A stretch of DNA of 64,000 bases. It comes from Chondrosia reniformis (taxonomy: Eukaryota; Porifera; Demospongiae; Chondrillida; Chondrillidae). Position numbers and translations under genes: made by a program. Positions 1 through 62,939 of the stretch are shown here, one piece after another; within the stretch, counting starts at the first letter, position 1, and each line of letters starts with the position of its first letter. The DNA lies in the NCBI GenBank assembly GCA_947172415.1, contig OX359199.1, positions 6,649,884 to 6,713,883 on the forward strand, read 5' to 3'. The notes under the pieces are model-generated. The model was not told where the DNA came from, searched no databases, and saw nothing but the letters and a program-made list of their open reading frames with translations.

Positions 1-3000
1 TATTCCTGAAGTGACCCTAATTAAAGTGCACCATGATGCTGAACAGCCTGACATGGTAACAGGGTCACTATGGGAGAAAAATTGCTGCATCTTGAAAAAT
101 AGCAATATCAGTGAAGAAGTGTTTTTAGAAAAGGGACTGTAAGTTTCTTGTAAATGTGAATCCTGAAATTATTAAATTTTATTCTAGTAATTGAAATACT
201 AACTTATCTTTTGTAGTACATCTGTGATGGCACTGTTGGACTATGCAGGCAGTAACCCATGGCAACCTCTTTCCACTGGGGATAGCGAGGCAAAGGTAAC
301 ATTTTCATGCACTAGTTATGTGTTCAATCATTCATTTTGTTATTGATTTATTAACAGCAAAAATTACTGTCCTAAATGAAATTATTAAATTTAAATGAAA
401 CAAAGTCAAATTTAAATGAAACATTTTTTTGGAGTTTTAATCAAATCCATTGACTTTAAACAAAAAGTCTCCACTGTGTCTATCATAGGAGATGAACAGC
501 AAATCTTTGTCAGTGCAATTTTTTCTTAATCTTCTTTCCATCTTCTCATAGCCCTCTTTGTTCTTCTTGCGTGGCTGAAGTCCATAAAAGGTGACCAGTG
601 ATGGCTTGTTGAGACCTTCCCCAGATTTGGGGACAGGGATACCAGCTGGGTATACAGTCACTTCACCAGGCTCAATTATGACAGTCGCATCCAAATCAAT
701 AGCTGTTACATCTGTATAGCCCAAAAATTGAACACTTCCTACTGTTTTATGTATCACTGTAAAATTGCGAACTTGCTTAAGACTGTCTTCCCCAAGTGTA
801 ACAATCTCATCCATTGAGGGTAGGGTAGCATAATCCATATTAGTAAGCCTTGGATGGTAAGGATTAATCCCCTGTTTGACCTCCTCCGCCAGAAACTCAG
901 CCAATTTTTCAATAGTTCCAAGCTCGACCAGTTTACTAAACTTCATTTGAATGGCATACTTTTCATCCAGCATCATCAACACTTCCGTTAGGGTGAGTGA
1001 TGAGATTCCCAGGGCAAAGAAGTTCATAGTAGCAACATCTTCCAGAGGTGATAATTCTGGTTGAGACATTTTAATCTTTTCAAAAAGAACCTTTAAGATG
1101 TCATCTTTTGAAGTTGTTAATTGTGTCATGATTTTCCTATCAGATATACCAGGGTACAGTTGCTTGAGTAGGTTCTGTGCAATCATGTGGGGAGTAACAT
1201 CTTCCAGTTGGGCCACAGTCATAGTTATTCCCGTTCTTAATTTTATCATTTTGATAAAGTCTTCTTTCTGAGCTTCTGTCATACCAAGTTCAGCCAAATC
1301 CTGATGTTCAGATATGGATTTGTTCATAATGTCCAAATCCAAAACTTCCTGAGTTGTTAGACAGACTAATTCACTCAAAAACAGTAATCTTTCTTCACTG
1401 GTCATCTCCAGTGTTGCCACGGTAATGCTGTTGTTAGATTCAGCAGAGACTGAGGATGCCACTCTTACAACCAAATCACTGTATACACTAGAGGATCTTC
1501 TTCGTTGGGATGGAATGTTGTCTGGAGACCTGGGACTAGTGGCGGTATGACCAGACAGGATGGCCTCAACTTTGGCTCTGAAAGGACATCTCTCAAGGAT
1601 GCTGGGGTGCTTGGCTGAATCCAGCGGGTGTCTCTGCCTCAGATACACCTGGGTATCATAATCACTTCGCAGTTCCATAAAGGCCTTCCGGACATTATGC
1701 ACTGTGGACAAGGAGTGTTTAGTGAAGGGATGAACCCCATTGCTTTTATCCAGAGTAAAGCCATTGCCAATGCTGGCAAATGTGTGTACGTGAAGTTGAA
1801 GTATGCCGTTCATGATATCATCCATACCACTGGTGAATGTAGGCTGTTCCTGTAGCATTCTCATAAAGTTTGGTAGGTAATCCAGTGGTACATCTCCAGG
1901 AAGATATAGTTTACCGCTACTGTGGGAATAGAATGGAACTTTTGGTGGTCGAGCAGTGATAGCCCTATTTATGGACACTGAATCAGGAACTATGTGACTG
2001 AGCATTATTGTTAAAGTATCCTCCATTCCCAGCATGCCAGCAAAGTGGGCAGCTAGCAGTTCTGATGGACCATTTGTGGCTGAGTAGAAGGCAGGCCTTG
2101 ATTTTCCCATGGCAGACCTAAGTAGTCTGTGGATTGAGTAGATAAAGGTGAACTCCAGCATGAAAAAATTGAGCACTGTCATATCTCCAGGAATCTTAGA
2201 AGTCAAGATATCCTTAAGCTTAGTTCCAACCAACTCCTCTCCAGCTTGAAAGTTTGGGAGCGTTCTGAGCTCCTTGAATGCCTCAATGTAATCAGACGAG
2301 TCTGCATCTTTTGCATTATCCATTGTGAGTATGACTCCCGGAGACACTCGCTCCAGACAAGGAACATGATCGGTTGCACTCAGAATGGCATGAGCTTGTG
2401 CTCCACCGAGACTGAGAGTGGTCACACCGGCTACCAACACTTGCCCTCCATCATTTTTCAGTTTAACTGGCTCTTTTGGTATCTGTAGCTGCTTTGGAAT
2501 GAGTTTGTGCTGCCTCTCCAGATTCACTGTTGGTGGTAGAATGCCATAATCCAAGGCAAGGATGGTCTTAATCAAACTTGTCATTCCAGCTGCAGATTCC
2601 ATGTGACCAATATTTCCTTTAACAGAGCTGGCATACATGGGCCTATTTGTTTTGTCGTGATAGGCAGTGATGACAGACTCAGTTTCAGTGATGTCACTTA
2701 CAGTATTCCCTGCTGCATGGCATTCTATAAAGGACACATCATTTTTGTGTTTCAGGCCTGCCTTTTCAAAGGCTTCATGGAACATTTCAACCTCAGCCTT
2801 CCCAGAAGGCATTGTCAGCATTACAGATCTGTTACCGCAGTGACCTGCAACAGAACTACACAGCAGTGCCAGCACGCGCTCATTGATGTCAGGCTTCCCA
2901 GCTTTCTTTAGAATGATCACTCCACATCCCTCACTCCTGACGTACCCACTACTGGCCTTGTCAAATGGCTGGCAAGCCTTGTCAGTGGCTAAACTATTGA

Positions 3001-6000
3001 CTTTGAACAATTCAGGAATGAGCAAAGCATTCACAGCAGCTACGACAGCCATTTTACACTCTCCATTTATGATGGCATTCGAGGCAAGATTAACTGCATA
3101 CAAGGATGATGCACATGTGACATCTACTGCAACAGATGGGCCAGTGAGTCCAAAGTGGTGGGATATCAGATTGGCAGCCATTGCATGTGGTGCTGTCTCT
3201 GTGTGCAGGGGACCCATTTCAGCCAAGTAGCTGTTGTCATGGCTACTGATTCCCACAAACACTCCAGTTTTGCTATCTAGTGGCAAGCTCGGATCAAATC
3301 CAGCATTCAGTAGAGCATCATATACAGTGTGAAGGAGTATGCAGTGCTGCGGATCCATTTCACTGGCCTTGGCTTTGCTGACACCAAACCACTGATAGTC
3401 AAATGTAGTCATGGCTGAGGTGAAACAACCTCGTACCAAGCCTCCCTGGTTGTCTGACAATGGGACTGTGATTGAGGTGTCAGTGCCAGATATAAGAATC
3501 TTCCAGTAATCATCAATGTTGTTAGCACCAGGGAATCTGCAAGCCATTCCTATCACACCCAGCCACCTTCCTCTCTCTGTCCCTTCAGTGGGGTAGCTAG
3601 GAGGAGGAGGTAGCAGTTCTGTTGCCAGTTGGCTTACTTCTTCTGGAGTCTTATACTTGTACAACTGATGTACAGAGATTTGCATGCCAAGTTCATTTTC
3701 CAGAGCTTGGCTTATTTCAGCAGCTTTCAATGAAGAGCATCCCAGGGACCAAAAGTTTGTGTCTTCTGAAACAGATTCCTGGAGCACCTGGGATATGACT
3801 CCTGCAATCATCGTGGGAGTTGGCCTCTCAGAAGTGGGAATGGGAATTTCTGCCCTACTTGTATTTACTTTCCTTCTTTTCCAAGTGAATAGTGATAGAA
3901 TCTTTCCATCCAACAAATCCTCTTTACATTTTTTTCTTCTAACCTTTCCTGAAGTTGTTTTTGGGACACTTCTCGGAGGAGCAAGGGTAATTAGGCCTAC
4001 TTCAGCTTCAATTTGCAAGGCTACTGTAGCAGACATGTGTATTGCCAACTGTGTAAGCTCTTCCTTGTCTAGGTTGGGGTCCTTCACTTCTGCAACTATG
4101 CCAATGATCTCTCCCAAGTTATCAGCTTCTTCTAGATCAACTGGGAAGGCAACAGTGCATCCAGCTCTCAGAGTTGGGTATGACCTTTCTAAGAGGTATT
4201 CAACGTCATTTGGATGAATATTATGTCCTCTGATTATTACCATGTCCTTCAGCCTGCCACTGATATAAATTTGGCCATCCTTCGTAAACCCTAGGTCACC
4301 TGTTCTGAGGTAACCCACTCTGTCATCCTCTGAGAGAGTGTGTGCCTGGAAGGTCTGACTAGTAAGCTTGGCCTTTTCCCAATAACCAACACCCTTTGCT
4401 TCGCTGGTGACCCATATTTCTCCTTCCTCTCCATCTGGCACTTCCTGTGTGGACACTGGATCCACCACTCTTACTACCACTCCATCAGCAGGAAGTCCGC
4501 ATGCAACCAATCCTTTGTGGCTGGTATACTTTTGTCCTATCTGATGCATCGAAATGCACACTACATGCTCGGCCTGGCCGTATGCAGGTGTAAGAGCCCC
4601 TTCCATAAGACCATAAGGACTAAGAGCGGCCAAGAACTTGTCAAGTGTTTGGATATGAATGGGTTCAGCTGCGTTTACTAGACTAACTACTTTACTCAAA
4701 TTGATATCATCTGGAATACGTTTTCGAAGAATTAACTCGTATGCAAAATTAGGTGCAACTCCGTGAGTGCCACCGAATTTGGTCAAGGCATTTAACCAAA
4801 TTGTAGGATTTTGGATGAACGTAAGCGGACTCATAAAGTATCCCTTGGCCCCGCAGGCGACAGTTAGCAAATAGGTACCAGTGAGGCCCATGTCGTGGAA
4901 ATGTGGGAGCCAGCTGATTTGGACGGAGCCTGCGTTGAAGTACCAACACTTGTACAATTGAACTAGGTTGTGCATGAGGTTGTTGTGCGTCAATATAACT
5001 CCTTTCGGGTCACCTGTGGAACCAGAGGTGTACTGCAGAAACGCTACGTCTTCTGGTGCTGGCAATTCGGTCTCCACGTTCGCAGCAAAATCTTGCAATA
5101 TATCGTCAATGTACAGCACATTAACGTCGTCCGATAGACTACTTGTCATTAGAAACGCACCTTCTTTTTTGGATAGCAGAAAAGAGCAACTGCAGTCTTT
5201 AATTATGGAATTCAATCGTTTCGTATCTTCTTCCATTCTTGCAGGATTTGGATAGTTGACAGGTACTGTAGAAGAAACGTATATAGTTTATAAATATTAT
5301 GTATAGGCTCTATATGTACATCCGAATGCCTATAGCTTACCAGCCGTGATCCCTGCAAACATGCAGCCTAGGAAGGCTACAATGAAGTCCAAACCCGCTG
5401 GAAAGCATAGGACAGCTCGTTCACCCTTTCTCACTCCGATATGCGCGATTGCTGCAGCGACCTTGCGACACTGTTCCGTCAGATTTCGGAAGGTTAGAGT
5501 TTGGGTGACTTGACAGCGACTGTCGACCCAGTTAAGCACTGGTGTATCAGGCGTTTCTTGGTACCAGTGAAGGAGACGTTCGACTATCGTCGTCATTTTC
5601 ATTTTGATTCTACTGTCTCGTGCTTTCAAAAATACAAAATTTATAGTTTCTCTTTGCATGCAGGGAAATTGTTTTTCAACCTCATGAATCTCATTAACAA
5701 TCATGTACTGTAGGATGCTTCTAGGGCGGCTAACAAAGAGAGCTTAGTCCACCAGGCGGATGTCCTGCTGAGGAAAAGTGTCTCTGAGTATGTTAAGAAA
5801 AATACAGGTGAGCATTGCAAAGAAGATTTAATGGAACAATTATAGAAAACCCTAGATACAGATTTTTATATAATGTAATTGCTCATCTGTTAGGTTTCAT
5901 TAAGTAGGTGATGCATTTAGTCCCACTTAGTTCATAGATGTACGTATATGAATTATTTTTAAAAGAAACATTGGCATACGAGTATATCATTTTGTGTCAC

Positions 6001-58500: not shown

Positions 58501-61500
58501 CATCCACCCAAGCACCCCTACATCCATTGATATATAATCTATACTGCACTACTTATATATAACTTTAGGTTCCACAAGATATTATCTATTCATACAAAGT
58601 ATCTTCTGAAAGAAGTGTTATGTTGTTTGGAGGTGGCTATTCTTCTTCTTCCTGTGCAAAGTCTCCTTCCAACATTTTAAGCAGACTCTTTTCCTGGGAG
58701 TACTCAAGCTTTTCAGATTGTTCGGCTGATTGTGGACAAGGGATAAGAATAAAACATCCTCACTGTAGATTCAATGGTGGAACTCCAGCCAATGACAACG
58801 ACTGCTGCCGAGCCGGATTGCCAAAGCCTGACCCCATAAAGGAAGGATGTGGAACAGAAATCTGTTCACCAAGGTATGTTTGTAACAAGAGAGATGCATT
58901 GAACTAGGTTACCAGTGCATTTTATATGTGCATACACATAATCCTATTGATGTGGTTATAAGACTAAAGAAAAAATAGATTGTTTTCCTAAAATTAATAC
59001 TTATGGAAAGTCTAAGGAGCTTTCAAATTTTCTTTCCAATTCTCTTTCTAGTAATTCCATCCCTCAGTAGTGCCAGTCTTTTTGTCTTCTTCTCTAAGTA
59101 CTGCAAAATATATTACAAACTAATATATGTACATACATTATTCTTATCTTTCCTAATGAACATATGTAGGTGAGAATTACATACAAGAGTAATATTAAGT
59201 TATGGCCATGCTTAGTGGTCACTTTAAAACCATGCAGCTATAATCATATAATTACAGTAGTGATACTTGTATTGTCTACATAGTGTCCAGAAAGTACTTA
59301 AGAGCCCTTCGTAATAGCCTATAGTGGCCTGTTAAAGAATGACTTAATAGATATTTTTATTAAGTTATAGATCTCTGATATATGCAGTTAATGTAATCAA
59401 TTTTCTTAAGCAAGTTGACTCGTATTTGAAATCCAACCCCACAAAGGGGTTATAAAGTCATTAGCCAATGAAGTGTCATTTTATTGTCAACCATTCAAAA
59501 TTGTATTTAAGACCTATTGTGTGAACTGCAAACTACTTCTTGTGGCCAGTTGAATTGTAATAGCTTTGTTATACGTATAAGAGTTAAGAAGTCAGTTATA
59601 GATTAGAGTATCATTTACATAACATTAAGAGATTTATTTTACACCCTTCAAGTGTGTGTTCTCCCTTTCAGGTGGACAACCAGTCCTTGGGGAAGTTGTT
59701 CAGAAACCTGCGGTACCGGTTTCAAAATCAGAACTGTGAATTGTGTGAGGGATATTTCAGACAGTCGACCTCCTAATCTGTTGGAAGACAGTGAATGTGA
59801 TTCTCTGAGTAAACCAAATTCAACAGCAGAATGTGAGGACATATCTCTCTGTGTAGCAGTTTGGAAAACTGGCAACTGGAGTGAGGTATATATTGCATAA
59901 TGATTTTAAGGTTAAAACCATGTAAGGATAAGAAGAGACAATTTCTTGTCTCCTATATGCTAGTTTAATGACAATGTTGTAAATATTCTGTTTTCTTGTC
60001 CATCCAGTGCTCAAATCCTTGTGGCCAAGGCAACCAAACTAGAGATGTGGTTTGCTATACAAAAAACAATAATACTGCAGATGACAGTGCCTGTGCAACA
60101 TTGAGAAAACCCAGTGCAGAACAGAATTGTACAGGTCCGACGACATGTAACTTTGTTTGGTACGAAGGCAGCTGGGGAAAGGTACCCATGAATTATTTAA
60201 GACGCCATATTGCAAATGCTATGATTTTCATACTAGAAAACTAAGGAAACATAAAGAGTAAAACACATTTTTAGACTTAGGGCAGACCTATAGGAGCTTT
60301 GGATGAGGATACAGTTAGTCTTCTTTTCTCCTTTCTCTACTGGGCCATTTATTACATGTACAACATACAAATACACATACACACGTGTGAAGGAGGTACT
60401 GTAGAAATGCATACAGTAGAGAGCTAAGGATCTTGAGAACTTCAAGAAAGTGGTCACTGATGAAGGGTGCTATTCCCAGAAACAGCTGTCTGGCCCAGTA
60501 GAGCAGAAGTTTATATCTGAAACTCTTATATCCTCATCCAAAACTCTCACTAGGTTTATTTCCCTATAGGCCTTTAATTGTAGAATGGACATAGTACTAT
60601 TACGTATATACGTACATACGTATAGAGAATACTAGAAACTTATCTGGGATTATATAACCAAATGAGTATCTAATTAAGTGTGTGGGCAACCCTGAAGTCA
60701 TTGGTTTGTACTTAATGTACTCAGTTTAATTCCTAGAAATTTGTGGGTATTTTTCTATTAGTTGTTAAAATCATAACATTATGATGCTTAAAGTCACTTA
60801 TTTATGATATTAATCAAATTAAAGAATATTAACAATGGGATGACATTAAATTACAGGCAAATTTAATTTGTAATGCATTATTGTGATTGCAAATATATCT
60901 TTTTAATAGCTTGAGTTGTATTAAATATATGTACATAACAATTGCAGTGAACTTGACAAAGTACGTATATGCACATACACTATGTACTTTCCAGTGCTTA
61001 TCATTCACTATGTGAGTAGTAATGAAAAATGAAAATTGTATAAACTATACTTTGTTTTTATTTAGTGTATAGGTTTGTGTGAGAGAGGAGATAATGGGTC
61101 AGCTTACAGAACAGTAAAGTGTTATGTTGAATCTGCCACTAGGAGCAGTCGAGTAGATGACAGATACTGTCTGTTGTACGGAGCTACCGAGCAAAGGCCG
61201 GTGGATATGAAATCTTGTTCATTGACCTGTGCTCCCAGATGGGTGATCAATGTAGTCCTTAATGTAAGATGGGTGATCAATGTAGTCCTTAATGTAAGAT
61301 GGGTGATCAATGTAGTCCTTAATGTAAGATGGGTGATCAATGTAGTCCTTAATGTAAGATGGGTGATCAATGTAGTCCTTAATGTAAGATGGGTGATCAA
61401 TGTAGTCCTTAATGTAAGATGGATGATCAATGTAGTCCTTAATGTAAGATGGATGATCAATGTAGTCCTTAATGTAAGATGGATGATCAATGTAGTCCTT

Positions 61501-62939
61501 AATGTAAGATGGATGATCAATGTAGTCCTTAATGTAAGATGGGTGATCAATGTAGTCCTTAATGTAAGATGGGTGATCAATGTAGTCCTTAATGTAAGAT
61601 GGGTGATCAATGTAGTCCTTAATGTAAGATGGGTGATCAATGTAGTCCTTAATGTAAGATGGATGATCAATGTAGTCCTTAATGTAAGATGGATGATCAA
61701 TGTAGTCCTTAATGTAAGATGGGTGATCAATGTAGTCCTTAATGTAAGATGGATGATCAATGTAGTCCTTAATGTAAGATGGATGATCAATGTAGTCCTT
61801 AATGTAAGATGGATGATCAATGTAGTCCTTAATGTAAGATGGATGATCAATGTAGTCCTTAATGTAAGATGGATGATCAATGTAGTCCTTAATGTAAGAT
61901 GGATGATCAATGTAGTCCTTAATGTAAGATGGATGATCAATGTAGTCCTTAATGTAAGCTTTGTGTTATACTAGAAGCACTGAAAATTTTATGTATATTA
62001 TGTGTTTGAAAATATACATATACGTAGGCTACATAATTTGATTGTTTTAAGGCCTTCAGATGACTGCAGATCAAGCAACAGCTATCCAGTTATCTGAATG
62101 GAATTCAGTTGTAGTTGTGTACATACTTATTTACATACTTATTTACATACTTATTTACATACTTATTTACAAATACACACATGCATAATTTACATACAAG
62201 CTAATGTACATGATACATATGTAGTTACTGATTGATCAGTCCCAATTTGTTCTTTATAGTGCTCTGTCACATGTGGCACTGGTGTCAGTATCAGACAAGT
62301 TACATGTAGGCATTCAAATGGAAGTGATGCTTCGAATCTCTGTGAATCAGAGAAACCGAGCCAATATGTGCCCTGTCACCAACCAGCCTGCCCAACCAGC
62401 CGTAAGTTTGTTATTGGCATGTCACATGACCGGTTACTCTATATGTAAATACACATTGTTATCCCAAAGATGCATGTTATTTATGTATAGGAATTCTGTA
62501 TATAGGCCATTTTTATTAGTACTTACTCAATTTTGAAGTGGCTGAACATAGTCAAAATAACCCTCCCCAACACAGGTGATAGGCTTGCTTTTCATCAGCC
62601 TAGAATAACTACTTGATTCATACATATTCAGAACGAAAATTAATCAATTGCAGTAATATAATGTATGACTGTACGCAATCATAAATGCCATGCATACGTA
62701 TACTGGTAAATGGTAGTTAATAGGTCCCAGCTGGGTTCAGCTTTTAGAGGCTATTTCCACTTTTTCTGATGTTGATATTTAACACTTATGATCCAATTAC
62801 CTATATACGTATTTCTTTAGCTTGTGCAGACACGGAAGGAATTAACTGTAATGATATAGTAGCCCGAGGAAAATGTGATAACTATTACAAACACTTTTGT
62901 TGTGAATGCAAGAGAATAGTGAGCAGTCTATCAGGATGA
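55589..62939 (+). CDS. Secreted ADAMTS-like protein (spacer, five TSP1 repeats, PLAC)
   Basis: Fourteen exons (55589-55608 to 62821-62939) in consistent phase give 629 residues if the first donor of the repeat array is used. Residues 1-34 are a split signal peptide ([17 protein letters not shown]). A furin-like RTKR follows near residue 70, then a Cys-bearing and spacer-like region ([18 protein letters not shown]). Five TSP1 repeats start [55 protein letters not shown] and [14 protein letters not shown]. The C-terminus is a PLAC domain ([20 protein letters not shown]). No metalloprotease HExxH motif is present, hence ADAMTS-like, an extracellular-matrix protein. TSP1 repeats are split across introns between the first Trp and the first Cys. 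The exon 8 acceptor (58144) was chosen to keep the frame. Confidence 0.88.
58378..58520. repeat. CATC/CACC tetranucleotide microsatellite in an intron
   Basis: Imperfect ATCC/ACCC runs in the intron between the exons ending at 58316 and starting at 58569. It makes a pyrimidine-rich stretch before the acceptor. Confidence 0.9.
58990..59105. mobile_element. Interspersed CCTATAGG repeat family, decayed copy 3
   Basis: Retains AGTCTAAGGAGCTTTCAAAT, TAATTCCATCCCTCAGTAGT and TCTTTTTGTCTTCTTCT in the same order as copies 1 and 2, but with many changes. It lies in an intron of the ADAMTS-like gene. Confidence 0.5.
60262..60575. mobile_element. Interspersed CCTATAGG repeat family, inverted-repeat copy 4
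   Basis: The left end reads ACCTATAGGAGCTTTGGATG. The right end, reversed, reads CCTATAGGGAAATAAACCTA then GAGAGTTTTGGATGAGGATA. The internal ACTGATGAAGGGTGCTATTC and GTCTGGCCCAGTAGAG match copies 1 and 2. Both ends are present, showing terminal inverted repeats and a MITE-like structure. No ORF. Confidence 0.75.
61237..61966 (+). repeat. 30-bp array, 24 copies, each with a splice donor
   Basis: Twenty-four units of GATGGGTGATCAATGTAGTC plus CTTAATGTAA, differing almost only at GGG/GGA. The array starts inside the coding exon of the ADAMTS-like gene at the first Trp of TSP1 repeat 5. Every unit ends AAT|GTAAG, a good splice donor. The unit is in frame and encodes the decapeptide [10 protein letters not shown]. 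Read through to the end, the frame closes a few codons after the array, so at least one donor must be used. Confidence 0.95.
62116..62172. repeat. 12-bp repeat, about five copies, in an intron
   Basis: Repeated ACATACTTATTT just before the acceptor region of exon 13 of the ADAMTS-like gene. Confidence 0.85.

Follow-up and report, generated by a model that had tools for sequence, protein, structure and literature searches.

A sponge gene joining an acyl-activating ligase and a ketosynthase to a non-cleaving NUP98-type domain

The stretch of DNA analysed here, called the window, comprises 64,000 nucleotides of contig OX359199.1 from the sponge Chondrosia reniformis (GCA_947172415.1, positions 6,649,884 to 6,713,883), and close to its first letter lies a minus-strand gene whose product begins as a fatty-acyl-AMP ligase (FAAL) and ends in a domain of the kind found in the nucleoporin NUP98, the autopeptidase domain (APD, PF04096). 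Translation gives an open reading frame of 1,599 codons (5236-437), hereafter the long frame, in which Pfam recognizes an AMP-binding domain, two acyl carrier protein (ACP) stretches, the N- and C-terminal parts of a ketosynthase (KS) and, at residues 1467-1598, PF04096 (E 1.9e-26; 93.4 bits against a curated cut-off of 28.4). KS and PF04096 thus share one uninterrupted frame, and the Pfam ends and starts leave a gap of about 17 residues between the last carrier domain and the APD. A first exon is joined in frame across a 75-bp GT..AG intron, a structure read from the sequence only, and the exon coordinates yield a spliced protein of 1,696 residues; the start may instead lie upstream, at the in-frame ATG of 5704. 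The original prediction, made from the letters alone, was of an acyl-activating polyketide-type synthase fused to a NUP98 autopeptidase-like domain; the Pfam domains in one frame bear it out, and the PF04096 profile match on which it hinged was obtained.

Table 1. Features of the fusion gene, in window positions
Feature	Position	Strand	Basis
Exon 1, with the start Met and the beginning of the AMP ligase domain	5341..5602	-	translation and splice check
75-bp GT..AG intron	5266..5340	-	sequence only
Fatty-acyl-AMP ligase (FAAL-type), remainder	3902..5265	-	PF00501 E 1.7e-44; motifs
Carrier domain 1 (ACP1), attachment Ser present (LGCSSL)	3626..3805	-	PF00550; motif
Ketosynthase (KS) with Cys-His-His and with HAAGN in place of the HGTGT loop	2516..3556	-	PF00109 E 1.7e-53, PF02801 E 1.9e-26; motifs
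Acyltransferase (AT) remnant, GHSxGE nucleophile lost	1517..2359	-	hhalign P 7.6e-05, prob 62%
Degenerate carrier-like domain 2, without its attachment Ser	1142..1396	-	hhalign prob 69% against carrier domains (control 0.2%)
Carrier domain 3 (ACP3), attachment Ser present (LGISSL)	881..1111	-	PF00550 43 bits; hhalign prob 93%
NUP98 autopeptidase-type domain (APD), PF04096	443..838	-	Pfam
Gly-Phe-Asp-stop at the place of NUP98 His-Phe/Ser	437..448	-	translation, APD alignment

The window is part of chromosome 11 of this demosponge. The genome that we searched consists of 15 contigs and 117,379,552 bases, contigs 8, 10, 11 and 12 measuring 8,125,224, 7,657,449, 7,633,987 and 7,521,688 bases; the assembly passages of the genome note give 14 chromosomes and a mitochondrion, a total of 117.37 Mb (117,390,217 bp in a figure legend) and 8.13, 7.66, 7.63 and 7.52 Mb for chromosomes 8, 10, 11 and 12 (PMC12181767). 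The frames that flank the fusion gene encode EFCAB10, NOG1 and mitofilin, ordinary eukaryotic genes which, on a 7.6-Mb chromosome, confirm the sponge as host. Of 12 candidates scored in this genome, only the gene itself matches the fusion protein over its whole length; five other matches are weak and cover it in part. Outside the fusion family the listed best matches of the enzyme part are bacterial-type polyketide synthases (PKSs), which might speak for a chimeric assembly, an error of the gene model or symbiont contamination; such an artefact is nevertheless hardly credible, given that a single frame crosses the joint between enzyme and APD, that the architecture recurs in four further proteins, that the neighbours are those just named and that the native NUP98 APD of the sponge sits elsewhere in the genome. 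The eukaryotic tail of the protein and the position of its gene on a sponge chromosome of that size disfavour a symbiont origin. Tests of misjoin or misassembly, of symbiont DNA and of chance similarity each led to rejection.

PF04096 occurs at four places in the sponge genome, namely the fusion gene and three exon pieces on contig C8, which when spliced encode a NUP98 APD of the usual kind, His-Phe-Ser included; an approximate version of its sequence scored 134 bits to the best-matching chain. Since the fusion protein contains no FG-repeat family in a Pfam scan and stops at 437-439, and since the His-Phe-Ser exons are on C8, the fusion gene is not the NUP98 orthologue of the sponge. Upstream of the native APD (L005 2999-5000), where FG repeats are expected of NUP98, we observed four glycine-rich frames holding 52 GLG against a single FG; on its 3' side, the next long frame (L005 7750-8988) gave no Pfam match of any kind, and we make no claim that the native gene runs on into NUP96.

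The fusion recurs in other proteins. Residues 1-1460, searched against 5.8 billion proteins, gave 1,018 matches, the best 120 of which were listed, and directly after the query's own protein came four relatives of 1,583-1,621 residues, 43% identical over 97-98% and each carrying PF04096, so that the same fusion, sought in protein collections, was indeed found there. The next match scored less than half as high, and PF04096 was present in five of the best 120 (query included) and in none of the 115 others. The relatives, known from protein letters alone, are without the ligase start, like the long frame of the window. Other searches retrieved no further member: the APD region alone found only its own protein, a result bounded by word matching and no proof of absence; with the C-terminal 355 residues as query, three proteins with an APD came up (two named Helianthus, one plant-like) and no other carrier-APD protein; viral contigs gave no match to the fusion protein, and the best 80 of 572 loci in genome contigs none past query residue 1001.

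Among the fusions the APD is conserved beyond every enzyme domain. Between the Chondrosia protein and the four relatives its identity is 54.1-58.5%, compared with 49.6-51.4% for the FAAL, 47.0-51.5% for ACP1, 48.2-49.5% for the KS, 41.2-43.5% for carrier-like domain 2, 39.0-41.6% for ACP3 and 32.8-34.7% for the acyltransferase (AT) remnant, the least conserved part measured. Standing at the top of this scale, the APD is therefore not a decaying passenger, and we take it, on the strength of these alignments, to be a selected, non-cleaving domain. A 41-residue linker between the AT remnant and carrier-like domain 2 (1397-1519, minus strand; residues ~1240-1280 of the long frame) is conserved like the APD (56.1-58.5%) and contains RRRSSS[VI]Y and SNNSIT; it is a possible phosphorylation or docking site.

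We compared the five fusion APDs with a hand-picked reference set of seven APDs, a set that leaves out the second Helianthus protein, yeast-type Nup116, Nup145 and further vertebrate chains, and a column is called constant when it is constant in those seven. By profile, fold, length and end at the cleavage point the tail of the fusions belongs to the NUP98 APD fold (PF04096; NUP98, Nup145N, Nup116), from whose other members it differs in being attached to a metabolic enzyme, in having neither His-Phe-Ser nor the FG-repeat family and in the replacement of R34, K73, L88 and W129. The fusion APDs are 29-42% identical to the reference APDs; that of Chondrosia is 34-37% identical to two vertebrate rows, to its own native NUP98 and to row 9hcj, a chain that we take to be from a slime mould, as we take 5e0q to be from a frog. 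All five fusions keep 16 of the 22 constant columns, and A84 is replaced in Chondrosia alone. In the APD tree, five of whose nine inner branches are open, the fusions group together (support 100/99) without being placed among the NUP98s. The cleavage His is Gly in every fusion, and the chain ends at the cleavage Phe of NUP98 in the four relatives and one residue later in Chondrosia, where the catalytic Ser is Asp. The fusions thus lack the His-Phe-Ser autocleavage site of an active S59 peptidase, and both expectations held at the outset, an end at the NUP98 cut site and no self-cleavage, are upheld. As the His is lost and the chain stops at the cut point, the APD is made in an "already cut" state. 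The C-terminal domains of yeast Nup116 and Nup100 are non-cleaving as well, so a domain of this type need not cut and may serve anchoring, although those proteins are FG nucleoporins and not enzymes.

Turning to the enzyme, the FAAL motifs YTSGSTG, SWLPHFHD, YGQAEH, RTGDLG and PKTTSGK are intact, and all five fusions retain FAAL motifs, the attachment Ser of ACP1 and ACP3 and Cys-His-His in the KS. The solved relatives of the ligase include the AMP ligases FadD32 and FadD23 along with chains that bear the name of a polyketide synthase or an acyl-CoA synthase, and NCBIfam FAAL models match below their cut-offs; the domain is accordingly predicted to be of FAAL type, forming acyl-AMP and loading an ACP. 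The attachment Ser of carrier-like domain 2 is absent throughout the family. The AT remnant, which gave no Pfam match, was assigned from a modest hhalign match to an alignment made from the first 60 of 74 bacterial-type ATs (controls 0.1 and 0.3%), and the structure model of the AT/carrier region (pLDDT 41) is too poor to use. Among the 115 non-fusion matches listed, EAHG[TA]GT is found in 76 and GHSxGE in 74.

The family profile, compared with solved structures, brought up only PKS-type and other names outside the fatty acid synthases (FAS) among the best 60 of 410, and the single sequence scored 187 bits to animal FAS versus 193 to a modular PKS. In its order, FAAL-ACP-KS, the enzyme resembles bacterial type I PKSs, to which it is 28-37% identical over the best segments (best 80 of 572 loci, the top one covering residues 7-952); it differs from them in the AT motif just counted and in the APD, which none of the 115 has. 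Acquisition of the enzyme half from bacteria is plausible on these alignments; we do not claim it, because the collections searched are poor in eukaryotic proteins. FadD32 and Pks13 of mycobacteria are two proteins, with a live AT and a thioesterase. The likeness to them lies in a FAAL feeding ACP-KS-AT-ACP, both NCBIfam models matching far below their cut-offs, and the difference in that the sponge protein is fused, its AT dead and the thioesterase place taken by the APD.

AFPK (animal FAS-like polyketide synthase) and FAS carry reducing domains and an AT. The fusion protein, like AFPK, is an animal-encoded type I ketosynthase, but a Pfam scan found no dehydratase, enoylreductase, ketoreductase or thioesterase domain in it and it cannot be counted as animal FAS or AFPK. 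Moreover, as far as the relevant passages of a 2024 survey covering 896 transcriptome assemblies from sponges go, sponges have the mitochondrial type II enzymes and no type I FAS, AFPK or PKS (PMC10764717), and the fusion gene is an exception to this reported absence, at least by domain type. PF00109 matched seven exons at three loci in the sponge genome, namely the fusion gene, C10 and C12; a further KS match, a weak one, lies on C10 at 749 kb. An exon of the C12 locus matches mitochondrial KAS (beta-ketoacyl synthase) best (E 1e-37). In their main blocks the C10 and C12 loci agree at 91-98% DNA identity, and the match at 749 kb is a partial copy in a block 83% identical to the C12 locus. Given this identity, all KS matches found outside the fusion gene are taken as copies of one mitochondrial-type gene, spread over two chromosomes (C10 ~749-759 kb and C12 ~479-482 kb; L101-L103). 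Acyltransferase and phosphopantetheinyl transferase families had no matches in the genome, in an exon-by-exon search that is insensitive and proves no absence. A 700-residue open frame on C6 near 5080316 (L093 1-2103) matches AMP-binding (E 2.3e-48) and, weakly, Condensation (E 4.4e-06; 26.1 bits, below the cut-off of 30.6), and is possibly a sponge-encoded gene resembling nonribosomal peptide synthetases. Far from the fusion gene, the window also holds a 30-bp tandem repeat (61237-61958) of 24 copies at 99% that lies in open frames in both directions (plus frame 61075-61974, minus frame 61122-61940).

The gene, then, is a sponge nuclear gene for a FAAL-carrier-KS enzyme of bacterial PKS type with a non-cleaving NUP98-type APD at its C-terminus, and for the activity, substrate, partner and place of this enzyme we infer the following. 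Judging from its motifs, the ligase would activate a fatty acid as acyl-AMP and load it onto carrier domain 1, from which the acyl chain would move to the KS cysteine; because the built-in AT is dead, carrier 3, if charged at all, would be charged in trans. The APD would do no chemistry and would act as a docking tail born "already cut", with Phe at or beside its end, tethering the enzyme to a partner, which like those of NUP98 would be a beta-propeller protein or a short peptide, and thereby setting the site where the acyl product arises or is passed on. That the protein is an acyl-activating enzyme with the APD as docking tail is the account that we favour on present alignments and hold to be rather probable.

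Several observations weigh against it. R34, K73, L88, W129 and H135 of the APD are replaced in all five fusions, and the binding partner may therefore differ from that of NUP98; KS EAHGTGT is altered to HA(A/S)G(N/K), and AT GHSxGE is absent, in each of the five; and the four relatives share 85-90% of their APD residues with one another and possibly form one lineage. With HGTGT altered and the AT dead the condensing reaction is not assured, so that the "lipid-condensing" enzyme initially described stands as regards the KS Cys-His-His and falters at the lost AT nucleophile and the altered loop. These losses, with that of the carrier 2 Ser and the poor conservation of the AT remnant, invite the thought that the whole protein is now a pseudoenzyme, a scaffold or acyl-AMP-dependent sensor; the retention of FAAL motifs, ACP1 and ACP3 Ser and KS triad in five of five fusions makes this quite improbable.

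As for where a docking tail would attach, the passages concerned describe anchoring as a second role of the NUP98 APD, through the Nup88 propeller or the N-terminus of Nup96 (PMC11148069), and of its fungal counterpart on the Nup82 propeller (PMC5653651), and report NUP98 also at cilia (PMC8421043). By analogy, the fusion APD might bind Nup88 or the Nup96 N-terminus and bring fatty-acid activation to the nuclear pore or the ciliary base. The 16 constant columns kept agree with such a pore enzyme, but the five positions changed in every fusion and the absence of the FG-repeat family do not, and nuclear-pore docking, suggested in the original prediction, comes out somewhat weakened, a possibility on the doubtful side.

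Enzymes of Pks13 type have a thioesterase at the C-terminal position that the APD occupies here. Its closeness to carrier domain 3, and a Pfam scan that matched no other release domain in the fusion protein, would suit an APD that belongs to the assembly line, gating or retaining the acyl chain on its carrier or connecting to a releasing enzyme. However, the catalytic Ser position is past the chain end in four fusions and Asp in the fifth, and the His is Gly in all, so that no acyl-transfer residue is evident in the APD and a part in the assembly line is improbable too.

Docking of the enzyme through its tail thus remains our preferred reading. No report of an enzyme joined to an anchoring domain of NUP98 type came up in the open-licence full-text literature searched, in agreement with the initial view that the architecture was undescribed. 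It is tempting, if unlikely, to suppose that sponges, at least, have a class of acyl-activating synthases docked via a pre-cut NUP98 domain, with lipid activation or condensation at the nuclear pore or at some other site that binds NUP98. If true, a metabolic enzyme would be a constituent of, or a cargo on, the nuclear pore machinery, and animals without type I fatty acid synthase would have a route to non-mitochondrial acyl condensation. In this protein conservation is higher in the anchoring domain than in the catalytic parts, and two questions can be approached with it at once, that of other partners of NUP98-type domains and that of the non-mitochondrial acyl chemistry of sponges without type I fatty acid synthase.

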